Source: Plicaturopsis crispa FD-325 SS-3
Lineage: Eukaryota > Basidiomycota > Agaricomycetes > Amylocorticiales > Amylocorticiaceae
Length of the DNA stretch: 64,000 bases
Direction of reading: 5' to 3'
Assembly (NCBI GenBank): GCA_000827205.1
Contig: KN832578.1
Coordinates: forward strand, 143,504-207,503
The notes under the pieces were generated by a model, which worked only from the letters and a program-made list of their open reading frames with translations, was not told the DNA's origin and searched no databases. Made by a program: the position numbers and the translations under genes. Shown here piece after piece: positions 18,407-43,514 of the stretch. Every line of letters starts with the position of its first letter. Position 1 is the first letter of the stretch.

Positions 18407-18840
18407 AGTGGTACGTCTACGATATTTTCTAATCAGCGTATTCGCGTTTGGGAAGTTCAGCAACGTGTAGTCGCCGTATAGGAGAATTCAAATCAGTAAA
18501 CAAAGGCGCTGGAACGAGGAAGAAACAAGGAGGAAACAGGCCAAGCCCAAGCTGCTGAATACGGACGCAATGTACCGGGCCGCCCTGACGCGCTCGGACC
18601 TCAGGCCTCAGTCCTTGAAACTTAAAGGTGCGTTGAGTTCGATTTTATTACAGCATCAAATCCTGGGTGTGGATTAACCATGTATTTACTTACAGGACGC
18701 GACCTTACGACCTGGAGAGCAAACTTACGATCGCGTCTCGCAGCACCAATTGGCCCTGTCCCAGAAGCGGCCTTCCGTCCGAGCATCCTCCAGCCACGTC
18801 TCCTCTGTGATACCGTCTGACCGACCCCTGCTGCGATTAG
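18390..18840. repeat. duplicated segment, copy 1 (promoter plus F-box tail)
   Basis: This segment is repeated in the same orientation at about 19955-20430. It includes the upstream region of the 17510-18406 gene and the 3' tail of another family member. Shared marks include GCTGCTGAATACGGACGC, GTACCGGGCCGCCC and CAGCACCAATTGGCCCTG. Confidence 0.85.
18725..18817 (-). pseudogene. relic C-terminus of a short-family F-box-like gene
   Basis: A minus-strand frame encodes DGITEETWLEDARTEG, then RFWDRANWCCETRS and stop. This is the family's terminal signature with no gene upstream. It came with the duplicated segment; the partner copy is the tail of the pseudogene at 20337-21432. Confidence 0.7.
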
Positions 18841-19012
18841 TCGTATGGGTCCGTGTCTGATACGACGCATATTGTCATTTAAAAGTGTCTTTTTTTCAAC
18901 GGTGGTATGCCTAAAAGATCTCAAGCTCTCGTAAACAACGGTACAACGAGTAAGTGCAATTCATAACCGCATAGATGTAAACGAGGGGCTACCGTCTCGT
19001 CCTAGCAAGAAC

Positions 19013-19969
19013 TCAGGATGCCGTCGCACCTTGCCGAATGGCTCTCTGCCAGATACTATCTCCTGTGCGAATTTCTGCCAGCCAACTCTCCGCCGGCACG
19101 TCGCATGGATCCCACTCCAGCGTATTCAACGAGTAAGCCGACAATTTTTCCGGAGATCCATCCACGTCGGCGATGTACACGCGCGGAAATTTCTCGCACA
19201 GCGACGCCAAGTACGCCTTGCCTCCGTCCGGGTAACTCGCGCGCGCAGACGCCGTCACCCCGAGTACTAGCGTTTGCATTGACGGGTGCTTGAGGATCTC
19301 AGCGCATACCAGCTCGAAGTCCTCCAAGTACTCACACGACGCAGTGGGCAGGGCCACTGCAAGGTGCGTGAGGCGCGGGAAGTGCTCCAGCGAGTTACTC
19401 ACCCAGAAGATCGCGACGTGGCTGGTGTCGTTGTCCGCGTGCAGCACGATGGATAGGTGCGTCGTTCGCGCAAGCAGCGCAGGGTTCGTATGCTCCCACG
19501 AAAAGAGGCGCTCGAGGAAGGGCCCGGAGAATGGGGACGGCAGAAGCGTGAGGCGCACGCCGTGGGAGATCTCTGGGGCTGGCACATTGCGATGGTCATC
19601 CCCGCAGGTGGCGTAGAATAGCTGGGGAGCGGTGATGGCGAGATCGGTGAGGCCGGTGAGGTGGCCGAGTGCTTCGTCTAAGTCTCCGTCTCGGGCCACC
19701 CACAGATGGCGCACGAGCGCACGAGTATCAGCGCAGTCCGGCGCCTGCAGGACCGCGTACTGGAACGCGTTCGTTTCAGCATTCGTCGAGAGCACGACGG
19801 TGTCCAGGAGATGGGGTCGCGCGAGCTTGCGTGCCCACGAGGAGACGAGGCAGAGCGCGAGTGCGGTGGTTATCGAGGAGGCGGCGGCGATGTCGAGGAT
19901 CTTGACGATCAGCTCGGATGGGAGCTGGGAGAACACGCTGACGTCGCTTGCCGCGGTGACGGGATCCAT
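19013..19969 (-). CDS. F-box-like protein (short family), 318 aa, mosaic copy
   Basis: Intronless and intact. The promoter and codons for MDPVTAASDVSVFSQ through LPSELIVKILDIAAASS match the gene at 17510-18406. From about SWARKLARPHLLDTVV onward the sequence instead follows the gene at 39187-40158. Shared parts are DCADTxALVRHLWVA, LTGLTDLAI, YLEDFELVCAEILKH, QTLVLGVTASARASY and the end SWLAEIRTGDSIWQRAIRQ plus GATAS. The 3' flank (39.1 kb versus 18.95 kb) is also shared. This looks like a product of ectopic recombination or gene conversion, with the switch point near 19880-19900. Confidence 0.8.
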   Translation of the reverse strand: MDPVTAASDVSVFSQLPSELIVKILDIAAASSITTALALCLVSSWARKLARPHLLDTVVLSTNAETNAFQYAVLQAPDCADTRALVRHLWVARDGDLDEALGHLTGLTDLAITAPQLFYATCGDDHRNVPAPEISHGVRLTLLPSPFSGPFLERLFSWEHTNPALLARTTHLSIVLHADNDTSHVAIFWVSNSLEHFPRLTHLAVALPTASCEYLEDFELVCAEILKHPSMQTLVLGVTASARASYPDGGKAYLASLCEKFPRVYIADVDGSPEKLSAYSLNTLEWDPCDVPAESWLAEIRTGDSIWQRAIRQGATAS

Positions 19970-20430
19970 CGTGGTACGTCTACGATATCTTCTGATCAGC
20001 GTAAGTATTCGCGTTTGAGAAGTTCAGCGACGTACGTGTAGTCGCCGTATGGGAGAAATCAGTAGACAAATGCACTGAATCGAGGGAGAGACCAGGAGGA
20101 AACAAGCCATTGCCAAGCCCAAGCTGCTGAATACGGACGCAGCGGCAATGTACCGGGCCGCCCTTACGCGCTCGGACCTTAGTCCTTGAAAGGTGCGTTG
20201 AGTTCGATTTTATTGCAGTTGAAATCCCGGGCGTGAATTAACCATGCTTTTACTTACAGGATGCGACCGTACGACCTGGCTAGCAGATACATGGCCTGCG
20301 CGGCCACAGTGTGCAGTATTACCCAGGAGAGCCTGTTCACGACCCCGTCTCGCAGCACCAATTGGCCCTGTCCCGGGAGCGGCCTTCCGTCCGAGCATCC
20401 TCCAGTCACGTCTCCTCTGTGATACCGTCA
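19955..20430. repeat. duplicated segment, copy 2
   Basis: This is the direct-repeat partner of 18390-18840, offset by about 1.57 kb, and carries the 19 kb gene's promoter and the tail of the next family member. Relative to copy 1 it has an insertion of about 50 bp around 20283-20335. Confidence 0.85.
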
Positions 20431-22137: not shown

Positions 22138-22410
22138 ATGACGCGTCTCCTCGTCGCCCTCTTCCTCTTCCTCGCAGCCTCAGCCACCGCCTTCACCCCG
22201 CCCGCCGCCGCCGCCAACCCGCCCGCCGTCGCCGCCGCCGCCGCCGTCAACCCACGCACACAGCCCACCCTGGTGCAGTTGATCGAAGGCCGTGATATCG
22301 TCCAGAGCGTTGTGGAGGTGATAGGAAGCGTGGCAGATGCAGCGGACGGTTTGTTAGAGGAGTTGCAGAGTGCAACAGCGGCGGCGAATAGTGCGATAGC
22401 GGCGGCGTAG
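22138..22410 (+). CDS. small secreted protein A, 90 aa
   Basis: The start at ATGACGCG is fixed by the leader cassette shared with three other genes. Residues 1-19 (MTRLLVALFLFLAASATAF) form a clear signal peptide. An Ala/Pro-rich stretch (about 20-38) follows, then a helical region containing LIEGRDIV and ELQSATAAANSAIAAA. There is no cysteine, so it is not a classical disulfide-rich effector. It is closest to the product at 26140-26433, which shares IEGR in the same place and a similar 3' flank. Likely exported; function unknown. Confidence 0.7.
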   Translation: MTRLLVALFLFLAASATAFTPPAAAANPPAVAAAAAVNPRTQPTLVQLIEGRDIVQSVVEVIGSVADAADGLLEELQSATAAANSAIAAA

Positions 22411-22440
22411 AGTGCGACGGCGGAAGGTGCCACCCTTGCT

Positions 22441-22551
22441 TGACCTGCTCAGGACTGTTACAAGGAGGAGAGAAAGGTATGTGTTTAGAGCAAGGTACTT
22501 ATGTGCTTCGCCTTAATACCCAATACTTACTCATAGACCGATGGGATATAT
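22441..22551 (+). repeat. conserved 3' flank of secreted-protein genes (pair with 26441-26530)
   Basis: CAGGACTGTTACAAGGAGG followed by AGAGAAAGGTA, then GCTT...AATACCCAATAC, occurs here and at 26447-26505 behind the genes for proteins A and C. The two genes thus share both flanks while their mature coding parts differ. Confidence 0.8.
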
Positions 22552-23745: not shown

Positions 23746-24720
23746 AGTCTGTACAGCGGACGCGTACGTGCGACCGCGCACGCGAAGATACACAAGTGTG
23801 AACGTATAGTATACAACTACGCACGTTGAGGAAGCCAAGCCACAGTCGTCTTCGATAGAATCGCGTCGCCAAATGTTTGCGTTAATGAATGCGGGGAATG
23901 ATAACGTCGATACAAGAATATCCGTGCCGATGCAATGCATGTACTGGCCCATGCACGCGTCCGCACGTCAACACGAACCGCACAAACAAACGCCAACCGC
24001 CGATAGCGCGAGGGCAAGCCGGCGTGGAATGCGATAGAGGGAAGGGTGGCGTGAGCACAAGGGACGAATGACGAATGCGAATAAAATGCCACGAGCGCGA
24101 AAAACACGCCATGAACGCGGATTAAATGCCGTGAACGCGAATAACACGTCGTGAACGCGGATGCCAGTGCAACGCGCCGTGCACGTGGACGCACATGACA
24201 TTGCGAGTGGATGCCAGTGCGGGACGTCCTCAACACGGACGTCAATGCAAGACAGAGTGTCCGCGAATGCTAGTTGAAGGTGGCGTTGCCAGAAGTTGAA
24301 GGTGGCGTTGCCAGTTGAAGGTGGCGTAACCGCGAATATAAAGCATCGCAACCGGTGGTGAACGCGGGAAAAGACCTCGTAAACACGAGCGGACGCAAAT
24401 GCAGTTGGGAGCAAACGCGAACGGGGCAGACGCTTGTTGAAAGAGGCAAGGCACGGGCGGGGTCCGGATGGGTGAGATAGAAGCGAGGCGAGGCGAGGTA
24501 GGTGAAAGGGCAGAGAGACGGAGATAGGTGGAATGGCAGCGACCGCGCACATAGCAGAGCCCCGCGCACGCATAGCAGAGCCCCGCGCACGCATAGCAGA
24601 GCCCCGCGCACGCATAGCAGAACCACGCGCACGCATAGAAGAGTCCCGCGCACGCATGGAAGAGCCCCGCGCACGCATAGAAGAGCCCATGCAGGGCATA
24701 GAGAGGAGTCAACGCACCTT
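23746..24720. repeat. minisatellite-rich intergenic DNA
   Basis: Three arrays lie here. A 20 bp array (CGCGAATAACACGCCGTGAA type) is at 24078-24170. A GTTGAAGGTGGCGTTGCC array of three copies is at 24272-24330. A 21 bp array (CCGCGCACGCATAGCAGAGCC) of about seven copies is at 24543-24690. On the minus strand the block starts with a GTGCGT donor-like site near 24717 and is pyrimidine-rich, as in introns of neighbouring genes, so it could be an intron of a minus-strand transcript. I could not define exons. Confidence 0.7.
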
Positions 24721-25230: not shown

Positions 25231-25620
25231 ATGACGCGTCTCCTCGTCGCCATCTTCCTCTTCCTTTCAGCCTCAGCCACCGCCTTCACCCTGCCCGCCG
25301 CCGTCACCCCGCCCGCCGCCGCCGTCACCCCCCGCGCCCAGCCAAACGAGGCGACGGACCTTTGGGCGGGTACTGCTATTCCGAAGGAGGACTCTGCAGA
25401 CACGGTGCACGTGAGAGATGTGGTGCACGCAAGACAGCTCTCGGGGAAGGAGGTAGAGGGCGTTAATCTCACGGAGATCATGGAAAAGTGTTCCGGCCAG
25501 ACCGGGGCTGCGCTAAACGCGACGACGGGCCGTGACGCATTGCAGACCATTCAAGAGTGTTTCGACAAGGGCGGGGCTGCGGTATTGCAGCTGTATAGTT
25601 CGATAAAGGCGGAACTGTAG
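25231..25620 (+). CDS. small secreted protein B, 129 aa
   Basis: Residues 1-19 (MTRLLVAIFLFLSASATAF) are nearly identical to protein A's signal peptide. A Pro/Ala/Val stretch (to about 37) follows, but the mature part is then unrelated to A or C. It contains DSADTVHVRDVVHARQL, two cysteines (EKCSGQ and QECFDKGG), a predicted N-glycosylation site NLT and another NAT, and a helical end LQLYSSIKAEL. The cysteines could form one disulfide. Likely secreted; no domain recognised. Intronless. Confidence 0.7.
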   Translation: MTRLLVAIFLFLSASATAFTLPAAVTPPAAAVTPRAQPNEATDLWAGTAIPKEDSADTVHVRDVVHARQLSGKEVEGVNLTEIMEKCSGQTGAALNATTGRDALQTIQECFDKGGAAVLQLYSSIKAEL

Positions 25621-26039
25621 GGGAGAATGCGGGGGAGGCGATGGAAGACACTTTTGGATCTGGGCCTTGGCGCGTTCGTTAATTTGCGTGTTACTGTTAC
25701 TGTTTGTATCATTCCCCACGAGAGTAAGACGTGTTTGCAGGATGTTGCAACTTGGTTGCAACTCCTCCCAACCGTGAAAAATTTTAGACCTGCTGTCAAC
25801 CCTGTGGAAGCCATATCATCTCATTGCGAACGGTGAGGACGAGGACGGAGTAGGAACACACGCACCTGCAACGGCAAAATCGACAACACGGGATACGGCT
25901 GCGGCACCGTCACATTGCGCGAGCGCCCAGGACGGACGCGCTCGGCGTTTCGAATGCGTCCCATAGTGTGAGTTTGAGTGAGGCAAGGGCTGCAATCGAC
26001 GTTGTCAAATAAAGCGGGCGACAGACGCACGCGCACACC
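25621..26039. other. intergenic, partly duplicated upstream region
   Basis: The right half (GTGTGAGTTTGAGTGA near 25966-25981, GTCAAATAAAGCGGGCGAC) matches the DNA before copies A and B, so it belongs to the duplication unit. No gene seen. Confidence 0.55.
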
Positions 26040-26433: not shown

Positions 26434-26939
26434 TCTGGTTGATCTGTTCAGGACTGTTACAAGGAGGAGAGAAAGGTACTTACGTGCTTTGCTCGAATAC
26501 CCAATACACATAGACTGACGGGATGATAGAGCAAGGAGCAACGGATCTGCGGGGTGCGGAGAGGACACGGGCACGGAGAGGACGCGAGGAGACGTATGCG
26601 CGCGTCGCAGAGAATGAAGGTGTTGGATTGACCGAACGTCAACGGATGCTTGTCGTTGGCAACGGACAATGCTCCTCGAAAACGGTCAATATTAATGTCT
26701 CGAAAACGAGCAATATCGATGTCACCAAAGCGTGAAGGCCGAGGTGTGAAGGCGAACGAAAGACATCGTCAACGCCAACGTAAAAGTACGCGACGATGTG
26801 CTGAGAGGGGAGAGATAGATGCGACGCGTCCTTTGAGCTCGAGAGGAGGGCCGTTGAAGCTCGGTTGAAGCAAGTGGGCAACGCACTTAGTACGCAGAGT
26901 CGATGACCGTCACACGTCACGGTGACGTATGCCCCTCCG
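26434..26939. other. intergenic after protein C, no gene seen
   Basis: It contains the conserved 3' flank to about 26530 and short degenerate repeats (CGAAAACG.TCAATAT, 26675-26720). No gene recognised. Confidence 0.5.
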
Positions 26940-27034
26940 GAGGATGTTTGGCAGCACACCCCAGAACCAAACAACCTTCTTCCCCCGCGTCTCTCCCTCC
27001 CTGTTTCTCTCTTTTCCTCAATCCGACGCGCACG
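26940..27034 (+). promoter_or_regulatory. conserved 5' leader cassette, copy D
   Basis: It has GTTTGGCAGCACACC, CCAGAACCAAACAA and a CT-rich tract, then GACGCGCACG before the ATG. It is the same block as in copies A-C but drives the hydrolase fusion gene. Confidence 0.75.
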
Positions 27035-30000
27035 ATGACGCGTCTCCTTCCCTTCCTCTCCCTCGTCCTCTCCCTCTTCTTCCCCGCCTTCGCCATTTCC
27101 GCCTTCAACCCGCGCACCGCGCCCAAGTCGGTGGCCACGTGCCCCGCGCTCAACCGCGCGCTGAACAAGTCCGTCGATATTCGCATCCGTGCGTCCTACC
27201 TCCCTCTCTCCCTCTCTTTCCCTTCTTTCTTCCCTTCTTTCTTTCCTTTCCTTCGACTCTCCTTTTCTCACGTGCACCCTGATGATCTAATCCCGAACCG
27301 AACGCAGAGTACTACGACGTCAACCCCTCCGCGCCCCAAACGCTGCTGCTCGTGCACGGCTGGCCCAGCCTCGCGTCTTCGTGGGCGCGTCAAATCGATG
27401 AATTCTCACCACGTGAAATCGATGGGGTAGAATCGCCGACGACGTACCGCGTACTCGCACCCGACATGCGCGGATTCGGCGGGAGCACGCACCCGGGGGA
27501 CGTCAACGCGTCCAACACCATGGGCGATTTGGTAGGGGATTTGGCGTGTGTCCTGCAACACGCCGGTATAAACGCCAACGACGAAAACGGAGTGGGCAAA
27601 AAGGCGAACGTGGAGAAGGGAGGGGTGATATGCGTAGGCCACGACTGGGGCGCGCAGACGTGCTACGAGATGGCGCGCATGAGGCCTGATCTGGTAAAGG
27701 GCGTGGTGGGGGTGACTGTTCCTGTGCGTCTCTTTGCTCTTTTCCCTTTCCCTCTGTCCTTCCCTTTCTCTTCCCATCTTTCCCTCCTCCCTCCTTCCTT
27801 GACGCTAATAAAGGCCAAAACAGTACATCCCCCCCACTCCACCATACACCCCCATCCGCTCCCTCATCCCACTCCTCCCCAAGCTCGCCTACCAGCTCTA
27901 CTTCGACTCCCGCCCCCTCGACGCCGCGCGCGAGCTCGATAACGACACCCGTAGGACACTCCGCGCGACGCTGAGGAGTGTTGAAAGCAAGCCGCCGGAC
28001 GCGTTTTTGAGGGATAAAGACAGTCTCCTCGGAGGTTGGGCTGAGGTAAAGGAGGTGAGTGTGCGTTATAAATGAAGAAGCTGACGCCAAGCTGACACCC
28101 CACATCACACAGATCCCGCCCGTGCCCTTCCTCTCGCCCGACGAGGAGGACTTCTTCGTGGAGCAGTATAAGGTGCAGGGGTTTGGGAGTAGTGAGTGTT
28201 TCTATCTCATGGTTTTGTTTTTGTTTCTGGTGTGCGTGTTTGTGGGGTGGGTCTTGAATTTCGCGTTCACACCGTTCCTCGTTTGAGTCCATGCCGTTTC
28301 GGCTTTCGCGTCTACACCATTTTGGTCTCGCGTCTACACCATTTTGGTCTCGCGTCTACACCATTTTGGTCTCGCGTTCACGTCGTTTTTAGCTTCAAAA
28401 CGTCTTGGGCTCGCATGCCCGCTGTTCCATACTTGCCTTCTCGCGCGTTCCCGACGCTCTTCTCGCGCGTTCCCGACGCTCTTCCTGTGTGTTCACGCCG
28501 TTCTTCATTTGCGTTCACGCCATTCTTCATTTGCGTTCACGCCGTTCTTCATTTGCGTTCACGCCGTTCTTCATCTGCGTTCACGCCGTTCTTCATTTGC
28601 GTTCACGCCGTTCTTCGTTCGCGTTCACGCCGTTCTTCATTTGCGTTCACGCCGCGCTGCGTTTGCGCTCACAACGCTCTTCTTCCGCGTTCTCGCTGTA
28701 GGGCATTTGCGCTCACGACGCAGTGCGTTCGCGTTCGCGCGTTCTCGTTCCCTGCCCTGCCGCCTTGCGCTCGCGTTCCCGACGTCTTTCGTTCGCGTTC
28801 CCGACGTCTTTCGTTCGCGTTCCCGACGTCTTTCGTTCGCGTACACGGCATTCTTCGCTCGCGTTTACGACGTATCGCGTTCGCGTTCACGACGTATCGC
28901 ATTCGCGTGCACGCCGTGCTATGTTGGCGTTTACGCGGGTTTTCGTTCGCGTCCACGACGGGCTGCATTCGTTTTCACAACGCTCGTCATTCGTTTTCAC
29001 AACGCTCGTCATTCGTTTTCACAACGCTCGTAATTCGCGTTTACGCCGTTCTGTCACCGCGTCTCCTGGCTTGTGCTCGCGTTTACACAGTAACGCGTTC
29101 GCTTTCACCTGCTTTCGCGTTCACGTGCTTTCGCGGTCACGGCGTCCTGCATTGCATTCGCGTTCGCGGACGGCTTTGCACTCACGTCCGCCGGTTTGCA
29201 CTCGCGCTCGCGTTTGCGCTCACCTGCATTCAAGGTTATTTGCATGGGCGGTCACAGACGTCGCCCTGACAGTGCCCTGCGTCGACGTGGGTATGCTTGT
29301 ATTAGCGCCTACAGTTCCTGCATTCTCCTGTGGTTCGTCTGCGTTTCTGTTACTCTTCTGCTTTCCGTCTATTGATTTGCGTGCACTATCTGGCTACACT
29401 CTACAGGCATAGCTGACCACCCTTTCCAGCGCTCGGATGGTACATGGACGCCGTGAGTTCCCTCCCCTCCGCCCTCCACACCGCCCTCCCTCTCTACCCC
29501 ATCCCCATACCCACATCCCCGCCTCCCACCATCTACCCATCAACATATCAACCCCCATTAACGTTTAACGACACCGCTCACAGAACAGACGCGCCTCCTG
29601 GGCGCTCGCGCAAGCGCAGGGGAATATGACGATCCCGCAGCCTGTGTTGTCGATTCTGCCGCTGCAGGTGTGTGCGTTTTGCTCGTTTTGGTCAGGGTGG
29701 TGGGTGCGGTTGTGGAGGTGCTCGTCGCGTTTCTACTTCGTTCGCGTTCTGGGTCGTGTAGTGCTGGCCTGAGTAGTGCGTTATGTGCTGTCGGTGCGCT
29801 ATGTGCTGTCGTTGCGTCTGGTGCTGTCGGTGTGCTATGTGCTGTCGGTGTGCTATGTGCTGTCGGTGTGGGCTTTCGTCGCTAGCTCGTTCCTTCGGGC
29901 AAACTCGCTCTTTCGTGTACCTCGTCCTTTCGTAGGCTCGTTCTTCCGTGCCGCTCGCTCTTTCGTGCAGACTCAATCTTTCGTGTTACTCGGTCTTCCG

Positions 30001-31709
30001 TACAGTGCGGTTCTCTGTCGCGGCTCTTTCTTTCTTCACAAACTCGGCCGTTCGTGCAGACTCGGTCTTTCGTCGCTCCCTCGTCGCACGCTCCTTCTCC
30101 ACCCCTCCCCTCCACCCGCCCATCCCATCCCCTCCACCTCCACCCCCTATCATCCATAACTAACCAGCCCACCCACAGGACCCCGTCGCAGACTGGGCAG
30201 AAGCCGCGCGCATCCTCAAGTCCGCGGAGTACGTGCCTGAGTTGACTACCGTGGTGCGTCTCCTTTCGTTGTCTGTCTTCGTGTCCTCGTTGTCTCTCTG
30301 CGTCCTCGTTTCCCTGTCCGTCCTCGTTTCCCCGTCTGTCCTCGCTTAGTCATCTTCGTCCTTGTTACATGGGTATGTGTCCTCATGTGCTAATGCGCCC
30401 ACAGATGCTCAACGGCGCACACTGGGTGCACCTCGAGAACCCCGATGAGACGAATAAGGCGATGCGCCGCTGGCTGGATGCGCATGCGGGCCGCTGGCTG
30501 GACGCGTATGCGGGGCGCTGGGGTGCCTCTGCGAAGAAGGAGGGTGCCTCTACTGCGGCGAAGGGGGTTGCGGATGTCGCGGAGACCGCGAAGAGTGCGG
30601 TGAAGGGCGCGTCTACTACGGCGAAGGATGCTGCGAATGTGGCAAGGGCGGCGACGGAGACATTGAAAGGTGCGGTGGAGGGTGCGACGAATGTAGTAGA
30701 TGGTGCGAAGGAGACGGTGAAGGGTGCGACGAAGGCCGCAAAAAGCGCGGTAGCGGGCGCGGGGGAGGCGGCTGGGACGGTGAAAAGTGCAGTGAAAAGC
30801 GCGGTGGGGTCCGCGAAGAGCGCAGCGGAGGGTGCGACAGAGACGGCGAAGAGCGCGGCGGTGGCCGCAGAGAGCGTCGTGGAGGGTGCGACGGAGATGG
30901 CGAAGAGCGCGGCGGAGGGTGCGGCAGAGGCGGCTGGGACGGTGAAAAGCGCTGGAAAGCGTGCGGGGGAAACGGTGAAGACCGCGGTGCACAGTGCGAC
31001 GGATGTGGCAGGGAGCGCGGTGAAGGGTGCGGCACAGGCGGCGGGGACGGTGAAGAGTGCTGGAAAGCGTGCGGGGGAAACGGTGAAAAGCGCAGCTGGG
31101 GTGGCAGAGAGCGCGGTAGAGGGGGCAATGGAGATGGCGAAGAGCGCGACGGAAGCCGCAGAGAGCTCCGTGGAGGGTGCGACGGAGACGGCGAAGCGCG
31201 CAGGAGAGGCAGTGAGGAGTGCGGCGGTGGCCGCAGAGAGCGTGGCACAGGGCGCAGCGGAACACGCTCAGCCCCTGGTAGAGCATGCCAGCCGCATGGG
31301 GGACAACACCGGGAGCTGGCTAGCCCAGCATGCCCGGCCCTGGGTTGCAGCGCTCCTGGGGCGTTGGGCGGGCAGGCCGTCTGCGAAGGACGGCGAAGCA
31401 TCGGAGGACCGGGTCAAGTCTGACCAGAGCGAGAACACGTCTGCGGAGATCCAGTCCACGTCTGCTGCGAGCGAACATCCAGCGACGCAAACCCCCGACA
31501 CGTCCGTGCAGGCCGAGGACAAGAGCGAAAATATGTCTGCGGAAATCCAGTCCACCTCTGCGGCGAGCGAGCACCCCTCCGCCCAAACTCATGACACCTC
31601 GACGCCCAGCGAATCCATGTCCGCGCAGAGCCCCAACACGAGCCAGGACGCGCCCGCGCCCGACCCCGACACGTCCGAGCCCACGTCCCCGGCCCACGAG
31701 GAGCTGTAA
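27035..31709 (+). CDS. Secreted alpha/beta hydrolase (epoxide-hydrolase type) fused to LEA-like repeats, 788 aa
   Basis: Eight exons (27035-27188, 27308-27723, 27824-28054, 28113-28191, 29430-29452, 29584-29667, 30179-30253, 30405-31709) join in phase to 788 codons. Residues 1-22 are the cassette signal peptide (MTRLLPFLSLVLSLFFPAFA). The hydrolase shows the oxyanion HGWP at 68-71, nucleophile D164 in VGHDWGAQ, acid D330 in DPVADW and H360 in GAHWVHLENP, the epoxide-hydrolase triad. Residues about 394-640 are repeats of the type AKSAAEGATET, an 11-residue amphipathic pattern like LEA group 3 proteins. From about 680 the tail is acidic and Ser/Thr-rich, with two copies of NTSAEIQSTSAASEHP-like sequence. 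Introns 4 and 6 are swollen by minisatellites. The last exon encodes H360 and all repeats uninterrupted, so the fusion is not a splice guess. Confidence 0.82.
28300..29060 (+). repeat. 22 bp-period minisatellite filling intron 4 of the hydrolase gene
   Basis: Blocks of different sequence all keep a 22 bp period: GTCTCGCGTCTACACCATTT type (28306-28380), TTCATTTGCGTTCACGCCG type (28490-28660), GTTCCCGACGTCTTTCG type (28780-28845), CGTTTACGACGTATCGCG type (28855-28960) and TCATTCGTTTTCACAACG type (28965-29035). The core is GCGTTCACG. As 22 is not a multiple of 3 and units lack stops, all three forward frames stay open. Confidence 0.9.
29786..30080 (+). repeat. two further minisatellites in intron 6 of the hydrolase gene
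   Basis: An 18 bp array (GTGCTGTCGGTGTGCTAT, about five copies) at 29786-29876 is followed by a looser 18-20 bp array (CTCGCTCTTTCGTGCAGA type) to about 30080. Confidence 0.85.
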
Positions 31710-32535: not shown

Positions 32536-32677
32536 AAACGTTTTGCAGGCCTGACAGACAAAGGATGTGTGCGGGCACCCCTCATATTCTGTCAATCCCG
32601 TTAGCATACATATACAGTTCAACAACGCACCAGGTCCGACGTGTCTGCAACTGCACACTTTCGCGATACTCGTCCCA

Positions 32678-33508
32678 ATGACGATTTCCGCTCCAGAAGA
32701 CCCCGATGACCGCGGTCACGGTGTGGGTATCTCACAATTACCCCCCGAGCTGATCCTTCAGATCCTCGACATCGCCGCCGCCTCGTCTACCGCCACCGCA
32801 CTCGCACTCTGCCGCGTCTCCTCCTGGGCCAAAAGCACGGCGCAGCCCCGCCTCCTGCACGCCGTCGCCCTCTCGACAGACCGCCAGCTGCACGCCTTCG
32901 AACGCGCCATCCTCACCGCGCGCTACGGCGCCCCGCAGCTCGCAATGGTGCGCTACCTATGGCTGCACGCGGACATGTACTACCTCGACCTGCCCGCGCA
33001 CTTCCCGCACCTCCTTGAGCTCGCCCTAACCCCCATGCACCTCCTACAGGCTGCACTCGAAGCGCCCGTCCCCGCGCCCCGCGTGACGCTCCTCCCGCTC
33101 CCTCCTCTGCACGCCGCGCGCCCGCTTGCGGAGCTGTGCAGCCTCGCGCGCACCGACCCCGCGGTCCTGGCGCGCGTGACGCACCTCTCGTGCGCGCTGC
33201 TCGACACGATGGCGCTGCCTTTGCTCCCGGCGTTCCCGCATCTCACGCACCTCGCCGTGTCGGGGGAGTATCCGCGCGCCGAGCTGGAGGAATTGTGCGT
33301 CGGCGCGCGGTCGCTGCGGGCACTGATACTCGTGCTGTACACGGATGTGGATCGCGGTTTCCTGGCGGCGTTGCGCGAGCGGTTTCCGAATGTGTACGTT
33401 TTGGAGGGGGAGGGCCATGCGACGGTGGAGGGGTGGCTGGAGAAAGCTCGAGCGGGGGATGGTTTTTGGGACAGAGCCGTGCGATTGTGCGATGAGATGG
33501 AAACGTGA
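32678..33508 (+). CDS. F-box-like protein (short family), 276 aa
   Basis: Intronless. The start at 32678 (MTISAPEDPDD) is the last ATG before the F-box-like motif LPPELILQILDIAAASSTAT; an upstream in-frame ATG at 32567 is possible but lacks paralogue support. It has SWAKSTAQPRLLHAVALST, FPHLLELALTPMHLL, RVTLLPLPP, VTHLSCALL, FPHLTHLAV, LRALILVLYTD, FPNVYVLEGEG and the signature GWLEKARAGDGFWDRAVR. It is the shortest intact member. Confidence 0.78.
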   Translation: MTISAPEDPDDRGHGVGISQLPPELILQILDIAAASSTATALALCRVSSWAKSTAQPRLLHAVALSTDRQLHAFERAILTARYGAPQLAMVRYLWLHADMYYLDLPAHFPHLLELALTPMHLLQAALEAPVPAPRVTLLPLPPLHAARPLAELCSLARTDPAVLARVTHLSCALLDTMALPLLPAFPHLTHLAVSGEYPRAELEELCVGARSLRALILVLYTDVDRGFLAALRERFPNVYVLEGEGHATVEGWLEKARAGDGFWDRAVRLCDEMET

Positions 33509-33720
33509 ACTTGCCTTCCCGTGTGCTGTATGATATTGTGGCCCCACAAACCACGTTCTGTAGGACCGTGCGAGTCGCAACCTACATGCTTGTTTCAAAC
33601 TTGGGTTCGATACATATAATAGAGTCAAACTCAACGCACCTTCTCTAGGCGCTGAGCGCGTCAGGCCGGCCCGGTGCATTGCGTAGGTGTGCGATAGCTT
33701 GTTCTTAGCTTGTTCCTGCT

Positions 33721-33780
33721 TGTGTGTGGTTGGACGAAGTGAGGGGAGGGGATAGCGTTTGGGATAGGGCAGTTTGGTGA
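33721..33780 (+). pseudogene. relic C-terminus of a short-family F-box-like gene
   Basis: Twenty codons read CVWLDEVRGGDSVWDRAVW and stop, the family terminal signature with no upstream gene. It is most like the end of the gene at 36060-37031. It shows that a further copy once lay here. Confidence 0.75.
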
Positions 33781-34144
33781 GACGTGACAGCCAAATTTGT
33801 GCGTAATGTATGCTTACTCGCGACCGCAGAACGGGGTAAGACTGGAGTCGTCGCACAGCAGGGCCCGCGGTGGATGTTATACCCAAGCTACAGGCACGTT
33901 CTGAAGTGTTTAGTGGTATCGTTGAGGGTGCATGACTTTCAGCTTCAGGAGGCACAGAGAGAGATGGAAAATCAGACTTTGGATTCACTTGCATACTGAT
34001 AGAATAAGACGTTTATACGAAATCTGATGATATAGCTAGCAACCCGTCAGTTAGGCACCAAATTCTTGGGTAGAAAGCGGCACGTACGTGGATCCTCCTC
34101 TACGACGGTTGCAACAGTCCTGAGCAAATTGAGTGAAGACGGAG

Positions 34145-35545
34145 TCATTTTGGACATCGCGTGCCCGGTAAAGCAGATGGTGGGGACCACAACCCCTTCC
34201 TACATCGATCCTCCAGGAGTTCGTGCATTCCACGGGCGTGGGCGGGCACGAGCGCGGTCCTAAAAGTGATCTTATGCACGTCGAGACCAAGAGGTGTTCC
34301 TTCAGAGCTGCGCAAAAGCAGCGTACAGGGGTCGAACACATCGAACACTAGGTGTGAAAGCTGCGGGAATGCCTCCATGATTCCCTCCGCGTCATCATTG
34401 TCCCATGGGCAGTCATCGACTGACAAGTTCCGCACGGAGGGGAGCCTGCAGGGTGAGGACGCATGAAGGTGTTTTAACGTGTCAACAAAGCCAGGGTCAA
34501 AAGCTAGGATATTTTTGAACACCACGGTGTCAAGGACTGGTGCGAGTATAAATGCGAGAATAAATGTAGTTTGACCAGGGTAGAGGTCATCGTGGGGAGC
34601 AATGCATATTGAGCGTAGACACGGCAGTGTTACTGGGACGCATGCGGGGAAGGTGTCTATGGCGGGCCATTGCGAGGTACAATCATCCCGGATGATAAGT
34701 CGTTCCAGCGAGACGAAAGAGTTCAAGAAGTCTCGAAATTCATTGAGTGACATTGATGGGCTCCGGGTACTGAGCTCTAGGCTTGTGATGGCATGGCATG
34801 GCGGGAATAGTGTATGCGGACTCATGCAGTTATAGACGAGGTCCCGCAAGGAGGGCGCACCACCTTGAAAAAGTGATATTGATGGCGCTGCTATTCGCAT
34901 GCTGTTGACACGTCTCGTTCCAACAGTGAATTTTCGAAGTCTGGGCGCATATGCGCGACGGAGCTGTCCTCCCACGTCGTGCAGGATTTGCATTGTATCC
35001 ATCTGAAGGGTGAAGGATTCCCAGCGCTGGATGTGGTTGCACATGAGGTTCATCAATACAAGAGACCGTGTCGGACTCGGAGGCATAGCATCTTTGCTGC
35101 CGAACGTCAGAGTCAAGCCGGCAGCCCCGGAGCGTGCGAGGACCGCGTCGAGGATGGCCAGGTCAACGCCGCACGTATTATTGATGCGAATGACTTTCCA
35201 GAGGCCGCACAGATGGAGTGCGACCGTTCTCCAGTGTCTCGAGACGCACGAGACAGCCGACCGGAAGGGCAGTTGTGCGCTCCAAGTCGACGAACGTTTG
35301 CGTATCTGATGATATGGGGGGTCCAAGCGATTACCAGCCTCGAAGATCATGGAAAGAACCTCTGGTGGCAACTTTGCGACGGGAACGTTTCTGTTGTTGA
35401 TCTCAGCGAAACGGGCGCGCTGACGCGCGAGTGATAGTTTGACCTCCTTGAGCTCGCGCTTCAGCTGGCACCGTTTGTCGTCGAGTTGCGAGATGGCCTG
35501 CCCGACGCAGAACAGCTCCTGGGATTCGTCGAGGTTGCCACTCAT
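34145..35545 (-). CDS. Coiled-coil F-box protein (long family), frameshifted 3' end
   Basis: Start at 35545 (MSGNLDESQELF). Residues about 12-50 form a coiled coil (AISQLDDKRCQLKRELKEV). A canonical basidiomycete F-box follows: VAKLPPEVLSMIFEAGN, then AVSCVSRHWRTVAL and LWKVIRI. The rest has leucine-rich repeat character. Compared with the paralogue at 37252-38754 one base is missing in the CCCCTT run near 34193-34199. The predicted protein therefore ends GLWSPPSALPGTRCPK. In the shifted frame the homologous tail continues VVVPTICFTGHAMSKM... to a stop at 34047, still well preserved. The loss of about 45 residues is recent, or a sequencing error. Likely SCF adaptor. Confidence 0.8.
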   Translation of the reverse strand: MSGNLDESQELFCVGQAISQLDDKRCQLKRELKEVKLSLARQRARFAEINNRNVPVAKLPPEVLSMIFEAGNRLDPPYHQIRKRSSTWSAQLPFRSAVSCVSRHWRTVALHLCGLWKVIRINNTCGVDLAILDAVLARSGAAGLTLTFGSKDAMPPSPTRSLVLMNLMCNHIQRWESFTLQMDTMQILHDVGGQLRRAYAPRLRKFTVGTRRVNSMRIAAPSISLFQGGAPSLRDLVYNCMSPHTLFPPCHAITSLELSTRSPSMSLNEFRDFLNSFVSLERLIIRDDCTSQWPAIDTFPACVPVTLPCLRSICIAPHDDLYPGQTTFILAFILAPVLDTVVFKNILAFDPGFVDTLKHLHASSPCRLPSVRNLSVDDCPWDNDDAEGIMEAFPQLSHLVFDVFDPCTLLLRSSEGTPLGLDVHKITFRTALVPAHARGMHELLEDRCRKGLWSPPSALPGTRCPK

Positions 35546-36059
35546 GACGTTAAGACCTGTTTTCAAAGTTCAAAATGTTATGGCTGCAGGAGAGAAGCAT
35601 GAGACGCACGATCGACGGTGCTGCAGTGGTTTAATTACTACGCGTCCCTCCCTCGAATTTTCAATTACAGGCCAAAGAAAGAGATGTTCAAAGAGTCGTA
35701 AGGAAAAGCTGGACAGATTTCTGTGCGTATGCGGGACCCTGGTTTGCAAACGACGTTGTCACGTTAAGCCTCGAAAATGAGAACGAGCCTGAGACGCCTT
35801 GAACTTGCCCATAGGTCAGCTAGCCACGTGGCACGCCCACACCTGGGTGACACTAAGTTACCTGGACCTGCTGCTCTCCTTCGACCGTACAACTGATTTG
35901 GGCATACCGTATCGTCGCGTTGTCGCCTATACGACTCAAGTAGGCGGACCACAATATCCTCTAGCTAGTAGCACTGCAACAGTGAGAATTTTCTCTACAG
36001 GACGTTGTAACAAAATTGTGACTACTGGCATCAACCGTATAGCAGCACTTGCGCATGCT

Positions 36060-37031
36060 ATGATCATGCCGGATTTTGTGGCAAACCGCAACCAAACTGC
36101 AGCTTACTCGCAATTACCACCTGAGCTCATCCTGAAAATCTTCGATATCGCCGCTGCCTCGTCGAAGTCTACAGCACTAGCGCTATGTCTCGTCTCCTCG
36201 TGGGCCTGCAACCTCGCGCGCCGCCGCCTTCTCGACACGGTCACAATTTCGACGAAGCTGCAAATGGAGGCCCTACTTTGTGCAGTCGAAGGCCCCCGCG
36301 GCGACTTGGCGGCCGTGCGTCACCTGTGGCTAGCGCACAATGAGCGCCACGACTGCATTATCGCCCGGCTCCCCAATCTCGCCGACCTCGCCCTCACACC
36401 CTACAGCCTGTATCACAGCCTCTGGGAGACAGAAAGCCCCACAACCCCGCCGATCCCGTCGATCGCCGCCCCGGACAACGCTTTGCGCCTCACCGTCATT
36501 CCGTCCGCGTCCGACGGGTACGCCTTGACGCGCCTCCTGACAGGCGCCAATGCCGCACAGAGCAAGCTAAACAGGGCGGGGCGCAATGCTACCCACCTCT
36601 CCTACGCGCTGTTCCGCAAGGACGCGTACATTGCAATGCTGCTGCGGACGACGGTGCTGCGGGTGCTTCCTACGTTTCCGCACCTCACGCACCTCGCGGT
36701 CGCATGGCCTGGTAGCCGCACGCCACTACCGCGCGAAGCGCTGGACGCGTTCTGCGAGAACGCACTCATTGCCGTGCCGGCGCTTCGCGCCTTGGTGGTC
36801 GTGATGTCCGCGGAGGCGCGCGCAGAATACGCAGCCGAGGACACGGCATTTCCGAGCTCGCTATGCGAGCAGTGTCCACACGTGTATGTTGTGGAGGAGT
36901 CGCAAGGCGAGCCTGTGGATATGTGGTTAGAGGAAGTGAGGGGAGGGGACAGCGTTTGGGAGAGGGCAGCTCGGTCAGGCGCGACGGTCAGAATTGTGTG
37001 TGCTCTGAGCCCACTCTTGACCGCGGAATGA
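36060..37031 (+). CDS. F-box-like protein (short family), 323 aa
   Basis: Intronless. I start at 36060 (MIMPDFVANRN; 36066 equally possible) because upstream codons show no paralogue similarity. It has LPPELILKIFDIAAASSKST, SWACNLARRRLLDTVTIST, LPNLADLALTPYSLYHSLW, LRLTVIPSASDGYAL, THLSYALFRKDAY, FPHLTHLAVAW, LRALVVVMSAEARAEY and the signature MWLEEVRGGDSVWERAAR. An extra 16-residue tail follows the signature (to LLTAE). It is a sister of the gene at 17510-18406, in the opposite orientation. Confidence 0.78.
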   Translation: MIMPDFVANRNQTAAYSQLPPELILKIFDIAAASSKSTALALCLVSSWACNLARRRLLDTVTISTKLQMEALLCAVEGPRGDLAAVRHLWLAHNERHDCIIARLPNLADLALTPYSLYHSLWETESPTTPPIPSIAAPDNALRLTVIPSASDGYALTRLLTGANAAQSKLNRAGRNATHLSYALFRKDAYIAMLLRTTVLRVLPTFPHLTHLAVAWPGSRTPLPREALDAFCENALIAVPALRALVVVMSAEARAEYAAEDTAFPSSLCEQCPHVYVVEESQGEPVDMWLEEVRGGDSVWERAARSGATVRIVCALSPLLTAE

Positions 37032-37240
37032 GGTCCAACTGTATGCTCGCCACGCGGCAAGCCCGCCGTCAATCATGTTGGATCCGCTCGTCCCAACAGG
37101 ACGCCATCGCTACGCGATACCTCCATCAAGTCGTGTTCTATGCATATTCTGGTCTTTTGTCGAAGCAGAGTCAAGATGTAGAGTATGTTGCTCTATCGCA
37201 CAATCACTTGTAGCGTAGAATGTTCAGAACAGGGATATAA

Positions 37241-37264
37241 CTAGTTACCCGTCAGTGCACGGGT
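37241..37264 (-). mobile_element. Helitron-like 3' terminus
   Basis: Read on the minus strand: a perfect hairpin ACCCGT-GCACTG-ACGGGT, then AA, CTAG and T. A hairpin a few bases before CTRR inserted 5' of a T is the Helitron 3' end. The stop codon of the minus-strand F-box gene (37252-37254) lies in the hairpin loop. Confidence 0.45.
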
Positions 37265-38754
37265 GTATATATAGAAAAAAGGGACGTACACTCATCCTCC
37301 TCTATGACGGTGACAACGCTCTTGAGTAAATCGAGCGAATCCGAGCTCATTCTAGACATCGCCTGCCCGGTGAAGCAGATGATAGGGACAAGGACACCCT
37401 TCCTGCTTCGATCTTCTAGGAGCTCGTGCAATTTACGGACATGGGTAGGCAAAAGTGCAGTCTTGAATGTGATTTTCTGCACATCGAGACCAAGAGGTAC
37501 TCCTTCGGAGCTGCGCAGAAGCGGGTGGCAGGGGCTGTCCCTGGGGTTGAACTCGTTGAGTATGATATGCGAAAGCCGAGGGAATACTTCCATGATTCCC
37601 TCAGCGTTATCATCCTCCCATTGGCAGTAGCTAACTGACATAGTCCGCACGGCGGGGAGTCTGCAGGGTGTGTACGCCAGGCCGTGACGCATCGCGTCGA
37701 AGAAACCACGGTCAAATTCCAGAAGATTGCTAAACGCCACGGTGTCGAGGAGTGGTGCGCGTATAAATGCGAGAGGAAGTGTGGTGCCGTGAGGGCTCAA
37801 GAAATCGTCGGGAGCGATGCAGATTGAGCGTAAGCACGGTAGTGTCGCTGGGTATGTGTGGGCGGCAGGCCATGCCAAGGCACAATTGTCCCGGATGATA
37901 AGCTCTTCAAGGCAAGCAAAATGGTTGAGGGTGGAGCGGAACTCGTCAAACGTCATTAATTTACGCTGGGTACCGAGGTCCAAGCTGGTGATGGCGTGGT
38001 ATGGCGGGACTACATAACGCGGGCTGACGCAATTGTAAACGAGGGCTCGTAAGGAGGGCGCACCGCCCTGGAAGATTGGCATCGGTTGCACGAGTAATCG
38101 CGCACCAATGGCGCATCTCGAGCTCACACTGAAATCCCGAAGTCTTGGGGCATATGCGTGACGGAGCCATCCCAGCACGTCGTGCAGAATATCCATTGTT
38201 CCCATCTGAAGCGCGAAGGATTCCCAACGCTGGATGTGGGTGCAGATGAGGTTCATCAGAGACCGTGTCGGAGGCGTGCCGTCGCTTCCGACGAACGTTA
38301 GAGATAATCCGGCAGCCCCGGAGCGTGCGAGGATTGCATCCAGGATAGCCAAGTCGATGTTGACCGTGCCTCTAATACGGACGGCTCTCCAGAGGCTTTC
38401 AACACGAAGTGCGACCGCTCTCCAGTGTGTCGAGACGGACGAGACCGCTGACCGGAAGGGCAGTACTGGCATCCGAGTCGACAAACACCAGATCTTCTGA
38501 CGGCCATCTGCATATGGCGGGTCCAAGTGATTACCGGCCTCGAAGATCATGGAAAGGATTTCTGGTGGCAGTCTTGCAACTCGCACGTTTTCGTTCTTAA
38601 GCTGGGAGAATTGTATGCGTTTGTGCGCCAGCGATAGTTCGACCTGCTCGAGCTCGCGCTTCAGCTGGGACTGTTTTTCCTGGAGCCGGGAGATGGCCTG
38701 GCCGACGCTATTAAGCAGCTCCTGGGATCCGTCCGAGTCGAGGTCCTCACTCAT
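37252..38754 (-). CDS. Coiled-coil F-box protein (long family), 500 aa
   Basis: Start at 38754 (MSEDLDSDGSQELLN). A coiled coil spans about residues 15-60 (AISRLQEKQSQLKRELEQV). The F-box is VARLPPEILSMIFEAGNHLDP, followed by AVSSVSTHWRAVALRVESLW. Leucine-rich strands follow (LPCLRSICIAPDD, LPAVRTMSVSYCQW, FPRLSHIILNEF). The C-terminal block HELLEDRSRKG, VPIICFTGQAMSRM, ends FSIYTPVH with the stop in a Helitron-like hairpin. It is intact and serves as reference for the frameshifted copy at 34145-35545. It probably recruits a substrate to an SCF ubiquitin ligase. Confidence 0.85.
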   Translation of the reverse strand: MSEDLDSDGSQELLNSVGQAISRLQEKQSQLKRELEQVELSLAHKRIQFSQLKNENVRVARLPPEILSMIFEAGNHLDPPYADGRQKIWCLSTRMPVLPFRSAVSSVSTHWRAVALRVESLWRAVRIRGTVNIDLAILDAILARSGAAGLSLTFVGSDGTPPTRSLMNLICTHIQRWESFALQMGTMDILHDVLGWLRHAYAPRLRDFSVSSRCAIGARLLVQPMPIFQGGAPSLRALVYNCVSPRYVVPPYHAITSLDLGTQRKLMTFDEFRSTLNHFACLEELIIRDNCALAWPAAHTYPATLPCLRSICIAPDDFLSPHGTTLPLAFIRAPLLDTVAFSNLLEFDRGFFDAMRHGLAYTPCRLPAVRTMSVSYCQWEDDNAEGIMEVFPRLSHIILNEFNPRDSPCHPLLRSSEGVPLGLDVQKITFKTALLPTHVRKLHELLEDRSRKGVLVPIICFTGQAMSRMSSDSLDLLKSVVTVIEEDECTSLFSIYTPVH

Positions 38755-39186
38755 GGCGCTAAAGACGAAAAACGCAATTATATACCACGACTGCATGAGA
38801 GAAGTATTCAAATGGAGACGCGTCGCGGTCTGTCGCGGTCCTGCCAGTGCGTACTCACTTGGTATTACGCGCTTTCCCCTCGTTTCCAGTGTCGACAGGA
38901 TGTCCCAACAGGTGTAAAGAATACCTAGACGCTTTTCTCGTTGTAAGTACTTATGCTGGTACGCAGACGCCTACAGACGCCTACCCCATGCGTTGTTTGT
39001 GTCAGTTTGTGTCCCGCCGCGGCTAGCAGCACAGCCACCAAGGCTGGAGTCTACAACCACTCTCTCGTAAACTTATATGAAAGTGTTTCTCTTTTCCAAC
39101 AACGGTTCTTGTGAATAAAGGTGCAACGAGTAAGTGTGAATCAAAACGATGTAAACGAGGGGCTACCGTCTCGTACTAGCAAGAAC

Positions 39187-40158
39187 TCAGGATGCCGTCG
39201 CACCTTGCCGAATGGCTCTCTGCCAGATACTGTCTCCCGTGCGAATTTCTGCCAGCCAACTCTCCGCCGAAACTTTGCATGGGTCCCATTCCTGCGTAGT
39301 CAACGTGTGCGCCGAAAGTACTTCCGGGGATCCATCCACGTCGACGATGCATACGCGCGGAAATTTCTCGCGCAGCGACGCGAAGTACACTGTGCCTCCG
39401 TCCGGGTAACTCGCGCGCGCAGACGCCGTCACCCCGAGGACTAGCGTTTGCATTGACGGGTGCTTGAGGATCTCAGCGCATACCAGCTCGAAGTCCTCCA
39501 AGTACTCACACGGCGCAGTGGGCAGGGCCACTGCAAGGTGCGTGAGGCGCGGGAAGCGGTTCAGCAAGTTCCACGCCCAGAAGATCGCGACGTTGATGCT
39601 GACGTTGTCCGCGTGCAGCACGAAGGACAGGTGCGTCGTTCGCACGAGCAGCGCGGGGTTCCAGACCTCCCACGAATAGAGGCGCTCGAGGTGTGGCCCG
39701 GTGTATGGGGACGGCAGAAGCGTGAGGCGCAGGACGCGGCTGTTCTCTGGTGCGGGGGTATCATCAGGGTCATCGCGGTCGCCTTTCCCGCAGGTGGTGT
39801 AGGATAGGTAGGAAGGGCTGATAGCGAGATCGGTGAGGCCGGTGAGCTGGCCAAGTGCATCGTCTAAACCTTCGCTTGGGGCCACCCACAGATGGCGCAC
39901 GAGCGCAAGAGTATCAGCGCAGTCTAGCGCAGGCAAGACTGCGTGCTCGAACGCGTCCCTTTGATCATACGTCGCGAGCACGACGGTGTCCAGGAGATGG
40001 GGTCGCGCGAGCTTGCGCGCCCACGAGGAGACGAGGCAGAGCGCGAGTGCGGTGGGCGTCGAGGATGCGGCGGCGATTTCAAGGATCATGACGATCAGCT
40101 CGGATGGCAGTGAGTAGAACGTCGCAGCGTCCTGTGCTGGGGCAGAATCTGGCTCCAT
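39187..40158 (-). CDS. F-box-like protein (short family), 323 aa
   Basis: Intronless; start at 40158 (MEPDSAPAQDAATFYS). It has LPSELIVMILEIAAASSTPT, SWARKLARPHLLDTVVLAT, LTGLTDLAISPSYLSYTTC, LRLTLLPSPYTGPHLERL, TTHLSFVLHADN, FPRLTHLAVALPTAP, LVLGVTASARASYPDGG and the signature SWLAEIRTGDSIWQRAIR. From the F-box region to the 3' flank it is nearly the same as the gene at 19013-19969 about 20 kb away, including DNA past the stop (GATGTAAACGAGGGGCTACC). Its N-terminus and promoter differ from that gene. Confidence 0.8.
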   Translation of the reverse strand: MEPDSAPAQDAATFYSLPSELIVMILEIAAASSTPTALALCLVSSWARKLARPHLLDTVVLATYDQRDAFEHAVLPALDCADTLALVRHLWVAPSEGLDDALGQLTGLTDLAISPSYLSYTTCGKGDRDDPDDTPAPENSRVLRLTLLPSPYTGPHLERLYSWEVWNPALLVRTTHLSFVLHADNVSINVAIFWAWNLLNRFPRLTHLAVALPTAPCEYLEDFELVCAEILKHPSMQTLVLGVTASARASYPDGGTVYFASLREKFPRVCIVDVDGSPEVLSAHTLTTQEWDPCKVSAESWLAEIRTGDSIWQRAIRQGATAS

Positions 40159-40994
40159 CGTGGGACTCGAGAAAATCCCGTCTGTTGGTTGGTGGATTGA
40201 GATCTGCGTACTGCACGTATCACCAGGCATAACAGATCATCCTTACCTGGATATGCTCTACAATATGTATGTGGCTGCGCTCGTCGATGGAGGATGGAAG
40301 GAAGGTTGAGTGAAGTCGGCGTATGTTATCGGCTTCAAGCTTCAAGACTCGTGCATGCAGTTTTCGCGAGGCTAAGTATCGGTGATGCATATCATATACT
40401 TCCAGTCCGCGAAACAGGCTTGCAAGTGCTCACCGCATGCCCCCAAGCGAAAACAGTTCCAGGTGTTTGTGGAGAGCTTTAAATTGTTGGACGCCGTTCA
40501 GGTATTATTCTCGTCTGCGTGTGTGCATCCTCTCACGGCTGAGCCGGGTCGATATTTTTGTAGACCGTAGCAAGACTGGCGAATAGACGAATATCCTACA
40601 GAGAGAGTCACCACCCAGAGACCACAGATCTGAGATTCGAATGTGTGACGTAAGTGGTGGCACAGTACAGAAGCAAGCGCAACGAGACCGGCCCGGGGCT
40701 GCCTCACGCCTACACGCACCAAGACGCACCACCACCACCACCCGCCATCTTGCAATTGCCCGCTGTTTGAACACAAGCTGTCCACGCGTAAGGCCATTGC
40801 ACTGCTCGGTCTAGCATTAATATTATAGTAGGATACCAGACGGGCCCTAGACTCCTACTACACCACAGGCGGTAAGTAGTACGCGGATAGACGCGGATCT
40901 ACATGTCTGGAAAACGTGCGTTATGGACTCAAGAACATCAGGGTGCGCTTACTAGGAATCAGTACATTCGGCTCGCGACGCTCTCAGGCGTGCT
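40159..40994. other. divergent intergenic region, no gene seen
   Basis: This lies between divergent F-box-like genes. A CACCAC run sits at about 40727-40742. No gene or element recognised. Confidence 0.45.
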
Positions 40995-43330: not shown

Positions 43331-43514
43331 CCTTGCCCTCCCCGTGCTCCTGGCAGTGCAGATCATCGAGGAACATGCATCAATAATACGAGTCTGACTC
43401 ACATCCTCTACACGCTTGATTCCTGAGTGTCCAGCGCCCAACGATATCGTCTGGCAAGATTCGGACACTTGCTAGCGCTTTGTAATCAGCAGCGCTTATC
43501 TCCCCGTGTACTAG

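Follow-up and report, generated by a model that had tools for sequence, protein, structure and literature searches.

The present analysis concerns a gene of the basidiomycete Plicaturopsis crispa FD-325 SS-3 that lies in a 64,000-nucleotide (nt) stretch of contig KN832578.1 (assembly GCA_000827205.1, positions 143,504 to 207,503 of the forward strand), hereafter the window, by which all coordinates are given. Between 27035 and 31709 (+), eight exons joined at GT..AG sites give a 2367-nt frame of 788 amino acids plus stop, free of internal stops. This frame is predicted to lead from an epoxide hydrolase into a giant amphipathic helix and an acidic tail, and the sequence supports well that the three are fused in one gene. 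The parts of this hydrolase-helix gene are as follows.

27035..27188 (+): exon 1; leader beginning MTRLL, signal-peptide-like by eye (about residues 1-20 or 1-23), and start of the hydrolase
27308..27723 (+): exon 2; HGWP loop (residues 68-71) and nucleophile D164 (HDWGA)
27824..28054 (+): exon 3; lid, with the first lid tyrosine Y213 (YQLYF)
28113..28191 (+): exon 4; lid
28192..29429 (+): intron 4; 1238 nt, rich in a 22-bp minisatellite, with a CTGAC motif 17 nt upstream of its acceptor end
29430..29452 (+): exon 5; second lid tyrosine Y298 (LGWY)
29584..29667 (+): exon 6
30179..30253 (+): exon 7; acid residue D330
30405..31709 (+): exon 8; residues 355-788, with H360, the end of the hydrolase fold, the helix domain, the acidic tail and the stop
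30522..31292 (+): giant amphipathic helix region, residues 394-650
31374..31706 (+): acidic Ser/Thr/Pro-rich tail, residues 678-788, with a 96-bp internal repeat

In all seven introns the donor reads GTG(A/C/T)GT and the acceptor AG, the length is not divisible by 3, and a branch-like motif is present, the nearest copy of which begins 15-21 nt upstream of the acceptor end. The two long introns (1238 nt and 511 nt) are both rich in tandem repeats; these minisatellite-filled introns, at 28192-29429 and 29668-30178, hold 22- and 18/17-bp units. The original prediction, made from the letters of the window, had proposed a single gene in which the repeats continue the hydrolase frame, a triad numbered D164, D330 and H360, and a catalytic His in the same exon as the repeats. 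The eight-exon join reproduces this numbering exactly, H360 lies with the rest of residues 355-788 within exon 8, and a stop or frameshift between hydrolase and repeats, looked for as evidence against the proposal, is absent from the 788-residue frame; splice-site anatomy and a bias towards silent changes in the tail likewise argue for one gene. Two separate genes were considered and rejected: an ATG codon does open exon 8 at 30405, but H360 and the last hydrolase helix come from that exon, so that a split would disable the enzyme. An intron inside exon 8 was also rejected, as the sole strict donor (GTRNGY, the pattern to which the scan was confined, weaker donors lying outside it), at 30506, has one branch-motif candidate, and the resulting 949-nt intron breaks the frame.

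Hydrolase, helix domain and acidic tail

The assignment of the enzyme to the epoxide-hydrolase type is strongly supported by profile and structure-database matches and by the catalytic residues. The 788-residue protein matches Abhydrolase_1 (PF00561) with an expectation value (E) of 1.5e-19 in a profile search, and in the Protein Data Bank (PDB) its first 393 residues match EphA (E 1.7e-30) and soluble epoxide hydrolase (E 1.6e-28), to which the hydrolase part is 33% and 29% identical, respectively, in a three-sequence alignment. Both of these relatives share the D-D-H triad, two lid tyrosines and an HGxP loop; the Asp nucleophile, the acid residue and the His are found here in that order as D164, D330 and H360, the lid tyrosines as Y213 and Y298, and the loop as HGWP, and the triad and both tyrosines occupy invariant columns of the alignment. 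Two lid tyrosines together with an HGxP loop set epoxide hydrolases apart from dehalogenases. Among bacterial relatives, of which the best 80 of 547 confirmed were compared, D164, Y213, Y298, D330 and H360 are identical in 80/80 and H68, G69 and P71 in 79/80, the last showing one gap; as the stretches GHDWG and GFPxxxxSW had served as search patterns, only Y213, Y298, D330 and H360 of the first five lend independent support, and G69 and P71 fall inside one of the patterns. The catalytic set is that of a complete epoxide hydrolase, and epoxide hydrolase activity is predicted from it. Unlike EphA and soluble epoxide hydrolase, it is preceded by a signal-like leader and followed by a C-terminal addition of 400 residues, whereas the C-terminus lies at most 12 residues past the fold in 77 of the 80 bacterial relatives and the remaining 3 have a stop directly after the fold.

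Within this addition, residues 394-650 (257 residues) comprise 31% Ala, 11% Val, 11% Gly, 10% Glu and 10% Lys, with one Pro and no aromatics; hydrophobic residues make up 44% and charged ones 23%, and the net charge is 0. Their hydropathy peaks sharply at one angle only, 100.4 degrees (power 63.4; 3.59 residues per turn), and this one period accounts for about 49% of the hydropathy variance over the 257 residues, with a local phase drift of at most about 50 degrees across the whole region; the spectral power of amphipathicity, 61.6, compares with 11.7 for the highest of 500 shuffles. On a helical wheel the order is an Ala/Val face, a Lys edge, Glu opposite and a Ser/Gly edge, and the mean hydrophobic moment is 0.29 (Fauchere-Pliska scale, 18-residue windows at 100 degrees). 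A lag of 11 residues is strong (z 8.2), and lags of 7, 18, 25, 36 and 43, among others, are strong too, the last four being mixtures of 7 and 11; in the DNA, the tandem units of the region measure 54, 108 and 30 bp. At the 11-mer angle of 98.18 degrees the power is 1.2. The earlier description of about 250 residues of 11-mer amphipathic repeats is therefore correct as to length and strong amphipathicity, but the repeat is not a clean 11-mer.

The acidic tail that had been described bears a net charge of -17 over its final 111 residues and is probably disordered. The copies of its 96-bp repeat (31422-31597) differ by 13 changes at 17.8 silent sites and 5 at 63.2 replacement sites (Fisher p 1.4e-7), and on account of this silent excess translation probably continues in this frame beyond the helix. 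Codon scores are good in frame both in the hydrolase (0.284 bits per codon) and in the tail (0.233). Codon-position identities at fixed lags, with conservation highest at the first position and about the same at the second and third, do not follow the pattern of purifying selection, and no support was taken from them.

Leader genes and surroundings

The N-terminus of the hydrolase, MTRLLPFLSLVLSLFFPAFAISA, is signal-peptide-like by eye, so that the proposed export signal is plausible at that level; its hydrophobic leader is common to three small neighbour genes. The hydrolase gene and the upstream genes A, B and C have the MTRLL leader in common as well as roughly 100 nt of 5' flank, and TTTGGCAGC occurs in four copies when both strands of the 64-kb window are scanned, all on the plus strand and each preceding an MTRLL gene. 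The few changes among the leaders of the MTRLL genes are mostly replacements, so that the leader shows no silent bias. The further features of the window are the following.

26925..27034 (+): 5' flanking module, with the core GTTTGGCAGC[A/G]CACC at 26946 and, between this and the ATG, a pyrimidine-rich stretch
22138..22410 (+): gene A, small protein with the MTRLL leader, 90 residues as read, perhaps extended by additional exons
25231..25620 (+): gene B, MTRLL leader protein, 129 residues
26140..26433 (+): gene C, MTRLL leader protein, 97 residues as read
25866..25932 (-): relic of hydrolase exon 6, 67 bp, 73.6% over 72 query bases
12672-15269: DUF6535 gene, E 1.3e-44

The bodies of genes A, B and C differ, those of A and C being amphipathic by eye. 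Just past the stops of A and C lies a 43-bp block, 93% identical between the two (22437-22479 and 26436-26478, +), that resembles by eye a small exon between splice sites (CAG, then GACTGTTACAAGGAGGAGAGAAAG, then GTA), and hence both genes may be longer than read. The exon 6 relic and two short stretches that resemble the intron-4 repeats (24125-24159 and 26746-26783, both -) all lie on the reverse strand, which suggests a broken and rearranged older copy. A 13-bp array at 3336-3517 sits between the ATG7_N and ThiF matches (minus strand), inside the ATG7 gene; together with the repeat-rich hydrolase introns, it makes repeat-filled introns seem a habit of this genome. Farther out, 10577-20023 and 32555-46874 are occupied by numerous related genes of either orientation, with a start that is F-box-like in style by eye and proteins beginning, again by eye, with motifs of the type LP.EL(I/V)..I.DIAAASS. 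In a profile scan of four cluster frames or relatives, 34145-35569 scored 23.9 bits for F-box-like against a cut-off of 24.3 bits, and frames 5491, 35793 and 42323 gave no profile match. No tRNA was found, nor any Rfam match at the gathering threshold. The DUF6535 gene and the style of the genes point to a basidiomycete.

What the helix domain may do

The reading that we favour, at somewhat less than an even chance, is that of an exported epoxide hydrolase, or one in the lumen of the endoplasmic reticulum (ER), held on lipid surfaces by its giant amphipathic helix. We infer the mechanism by analogy: the hydrolase would enter the secretory pathway via its leader, and the helix domain, which in solution may be a closed hairpin, would open at an oil or membrane surface and lie flat on it through its straight Ala/Val stripe, like phasins, apolipophorin-III and perilipin-4. 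At that surface the enzyme would act on lipids or other hydrophobic compounds and open their epoxides, the acidic tail staying in water. Judging from known biochemistry, its substrates would likely be epoxy fatty acids, whether derived from the cutin or suberin of plants or formed by peroxygenases and P450s of the fungus itself. Lipid-surface binding had been an alternative in the original prediction, and it appears to fit better than a late embryogenesis abundant (LEA) domain, given weak Phasin_2 and ApoLp-III matches and a perilipin-like composition. Moment and aromatic, hydrophobic and charged fractions are given as 0.35/0.01/0.37/0.23 for perilipin-3 and 0.257/0.002/0.35/0.15 for perilipin-4 in the excerpted text of PMC5889406, although the moments differ in basis, those of the perilipins being computed as 3-11 helices and that of the helix domain as stated above. 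The same excerpt holds that length, hydrophobicity and charge can partly compensate for each other, and a passage in another source likens the 11-mer and 4-helix regions of perilipin 3 to apolipophorin III (PMC10694602). Like perilipin-4, as portrayed there (PMC5889406), the present domain is a very long repeat helix that is nearly free of aromatics and has a weakly hydrophobic face and a moderate moment; however, it is Ala-rich rather than Thr/Gly/Val-rich, it is fused to an enzyme with a secretory-type leader, and it lacks the 11-residue (3-11) helix of the perilipins, the likeness being confined to moment and composition. Phasins and apolipophorin-III show weak profile similarity to the domain, which by score is not a member of either family, and phasins are less regular, with at most 13% of the variance at one period (15 frames) against 49% here.

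Several observations weigh against this lipid-surface reading. The matches to Phasin_2 (PF09361; E 5.9e-4, 20.4 bits) and ApoLp-III (PF07464; E 0.17, 12.4 bits) stay below the curated cut-offs of 24.9 and 36.3 bits; the domain also matches the NCBIfam Ag473 lipoprotein family (E 3.3e-4, 21.4 bits versus a cut-off of 100) and an alanine-zipper lipoprotein family (E 0.7), and biased composition alone may cause such weak scores. The period of 3.59 residues per turn differs from the 3.67 of perilipin and synuclein 11-mers, the net charge of 0 differs from that of the perilipin-4 repeat, described as positive in the excerpt of PMC5889406, and secretion would put the helix away from cytosolic lipid droplets. 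The hydrophobic face, nearly all Ala and Val, is also suited to helix-helix packing, and the nearest solved folds are chemoreceptor helical hairpins; the structural model of the helix and tail, built from single-sequence input, has a mean predicted local distance difference test (pLDDT) score of 61.3 and a predicted template modelling (TM) score of 0.36. With respect to translation, six overlapping comparisons of helix units give replacement/silent ratios of 0.23-1.05, a weak silent bias, with a pooled p of 0.14 from two that were taken as least overlapping, and the helix region has a codon score of 0.009 bits per codon versus 0.223 in antisense frame r1, its composition being unlike that of the genes on which the score was trained.

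The foremost alternative is that the helix domain forms a rigid spacer or oligomerisation stalk in which the Ala/Val stripes pack in a hairpin or bundle, holding the enzyme off the wall or in multimers with its Ser/Thr-rich, possibly glycosylated tail. Such a stalk is rather doubtful in itself, and we consider it almost as likely as the lipid-surface reading. Small Ala/Val faces suit tight helix packing, and a single-sequence AlphaFold model (window 30498-31706) predicts two long helices of near-equal length, residues 395-531 and 535-676 (137 and 142 residues), with 10-residue block pLDDT mostly 70-82 in the helices and mostly below 50 in the tail. Foldseek places its best structural matches among long helical hairpins, for example those of chemoreceptors (best E 2.1e-4, TM 0.28), and by sequence the domain comes closest in the PDB to a designed helical repeat protein (E 3.2e-4). 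However, the Foldseek matches are weak, 3 of 340 having E <=0.001, and would be expected for any long helix pair, and the weak Pfam matches include lipid-surface proteins, though also the alanine-zipper lipoproteins. The Ala-rich type I antifreeze protein 4ke2 is among the Foldseek matches as well (E 0.12).

It is distinctly unlikely that the repeat region is a recent, functionless tandem-repeat expansion tolerated on an ordinary hydrolase, in a gene that may even be decaying. Minisatellites are frequent in the window, a reverse-strand exon relic lies nearby, and the helix units show the insignificant silent/replacement contrast and neutral codon score given above; moreover, other frames of the helix DNA show the same angle, one antisense frame reaching a power of 39.3 at 100.5 degrees. 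However, the five arrays that Tandem Repeats Finder reports in exon 8 have periods of 24, 30, 54, 96 and 108, all multiples of 3, unlike those of intron 4, which are mostly of period 22. The 257 codons are stop-free, as were 24 of 500 neutral simulations, in which a perfect 18-mer array was mutated to a lag-54 identity of 0.518 (observed 0.534), a stepwise duplication history being ignored; the variance at one period was 0.21 in these (standard deviation 0.05, maximum 0.38), and 0/500 reached the observed amphipathicity. The silent excess in the tail and the intact splice sites speak against expansion as well.

A group 3 LEA-like domain that guards the enzyme or membranes during drying, as first proposed, is very unlikely. 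The helix domain shares with group 3 LEA proteins (LEA_4) an amphipathic helix and an Ala/Lys/Glu-rich composition, with Thr and Gly also abundant, and 11-residue spacing is one of its several strong lags. However, LEA_4 (PF02987) was unreported for the helix domain at E up to 10 (HMMER filters dropping most matches above about 0.1) and for the whole 788-residue protein at E up to 1. Group 3 is described, in an excerpt of PMC4944394, by the repeating 11-mer TAQAAKEKAGE, which corresponds to 98.2 degrees per residue, where the domain has a power of 1.2 against 63.4 at 100.4 degrees. Of 200 genomes searched for LEA_4 yardsticks, two bacterial ones had matches, one above the curated cut-off (L096) and one below (L097); the matching proteins resemble each other in sequence and have their peaks at 98.8 and 98.4 degrees, respectively, so that the period test separates the classes, though on one kind of example. 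Both have a lipoprotein-like leader ending in TGC. The domain also seems less hydrophilic, with a grand average of hydropathy of -0.08 versus -0.39 and -0.49 in the only two yardsticks compared, leaders included. The LEA family label was rejected because of the missing profile match and the helical period. Fungal Kex2-processed repeat proteins are a class that releases peptides, but the notion that the Golgi protease Kex2 cuts the present repeats into released peptides has a near-negligible probability: the secretory-type leader and KR pairs at residues 539, 575 and 618 (within 30957-31199), two of them in identical SAGKRAGETVK segments, would suit it, whereas merely three such pairs, unevenly spaced, occur across the 257-residue repeat region, and the phase-locked helix continues across them.

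The reading as a lipid-surface epoxide hydrolase can be stated more fully, in a form that we consider rather unlikely as a whole: an interfacial enzyme, outside the cell or in the ER lumen, would carry its own apolipoprotein-like helix, tuned to 3.6 residues per turn with a stripe kept straight for about 70 turns, and a leader cassette shared by duplication among four secreted genes. Fungal peroxygenases are described as epoxidising fatty acids in an excerpt of PMC8698580, and soluble epoxide hydrolase genes as more numerous in white-rot basidiomycetes than in ascomycetes in one of PMC10470841; we infer a link between these reports and the present gene. The original prediction had taken the combination of hydrolase and helix to be undescribed, and no fusion of an epoxide hydrolase to an amphipathic or LEA helix was found among the open-licence papers listed in literature searches (subscription journals and fungal databases being outside their scope); in mushrooms such fusions may thus be frequent and merely undescribed. 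If the reading is correct, an epoxide hydrolase would be tied to a lipid surface by a helix of the coat-protein kind. It would constitute a natural interfacial catalyst and would make it possible to test whether the surfaces bound by 3.6-fold helices differ from those bound by 11-mer helices, and it could explain the extracellular clearing of water-insoluble epoxy lipids in fungi with extracellular peroxygenases.

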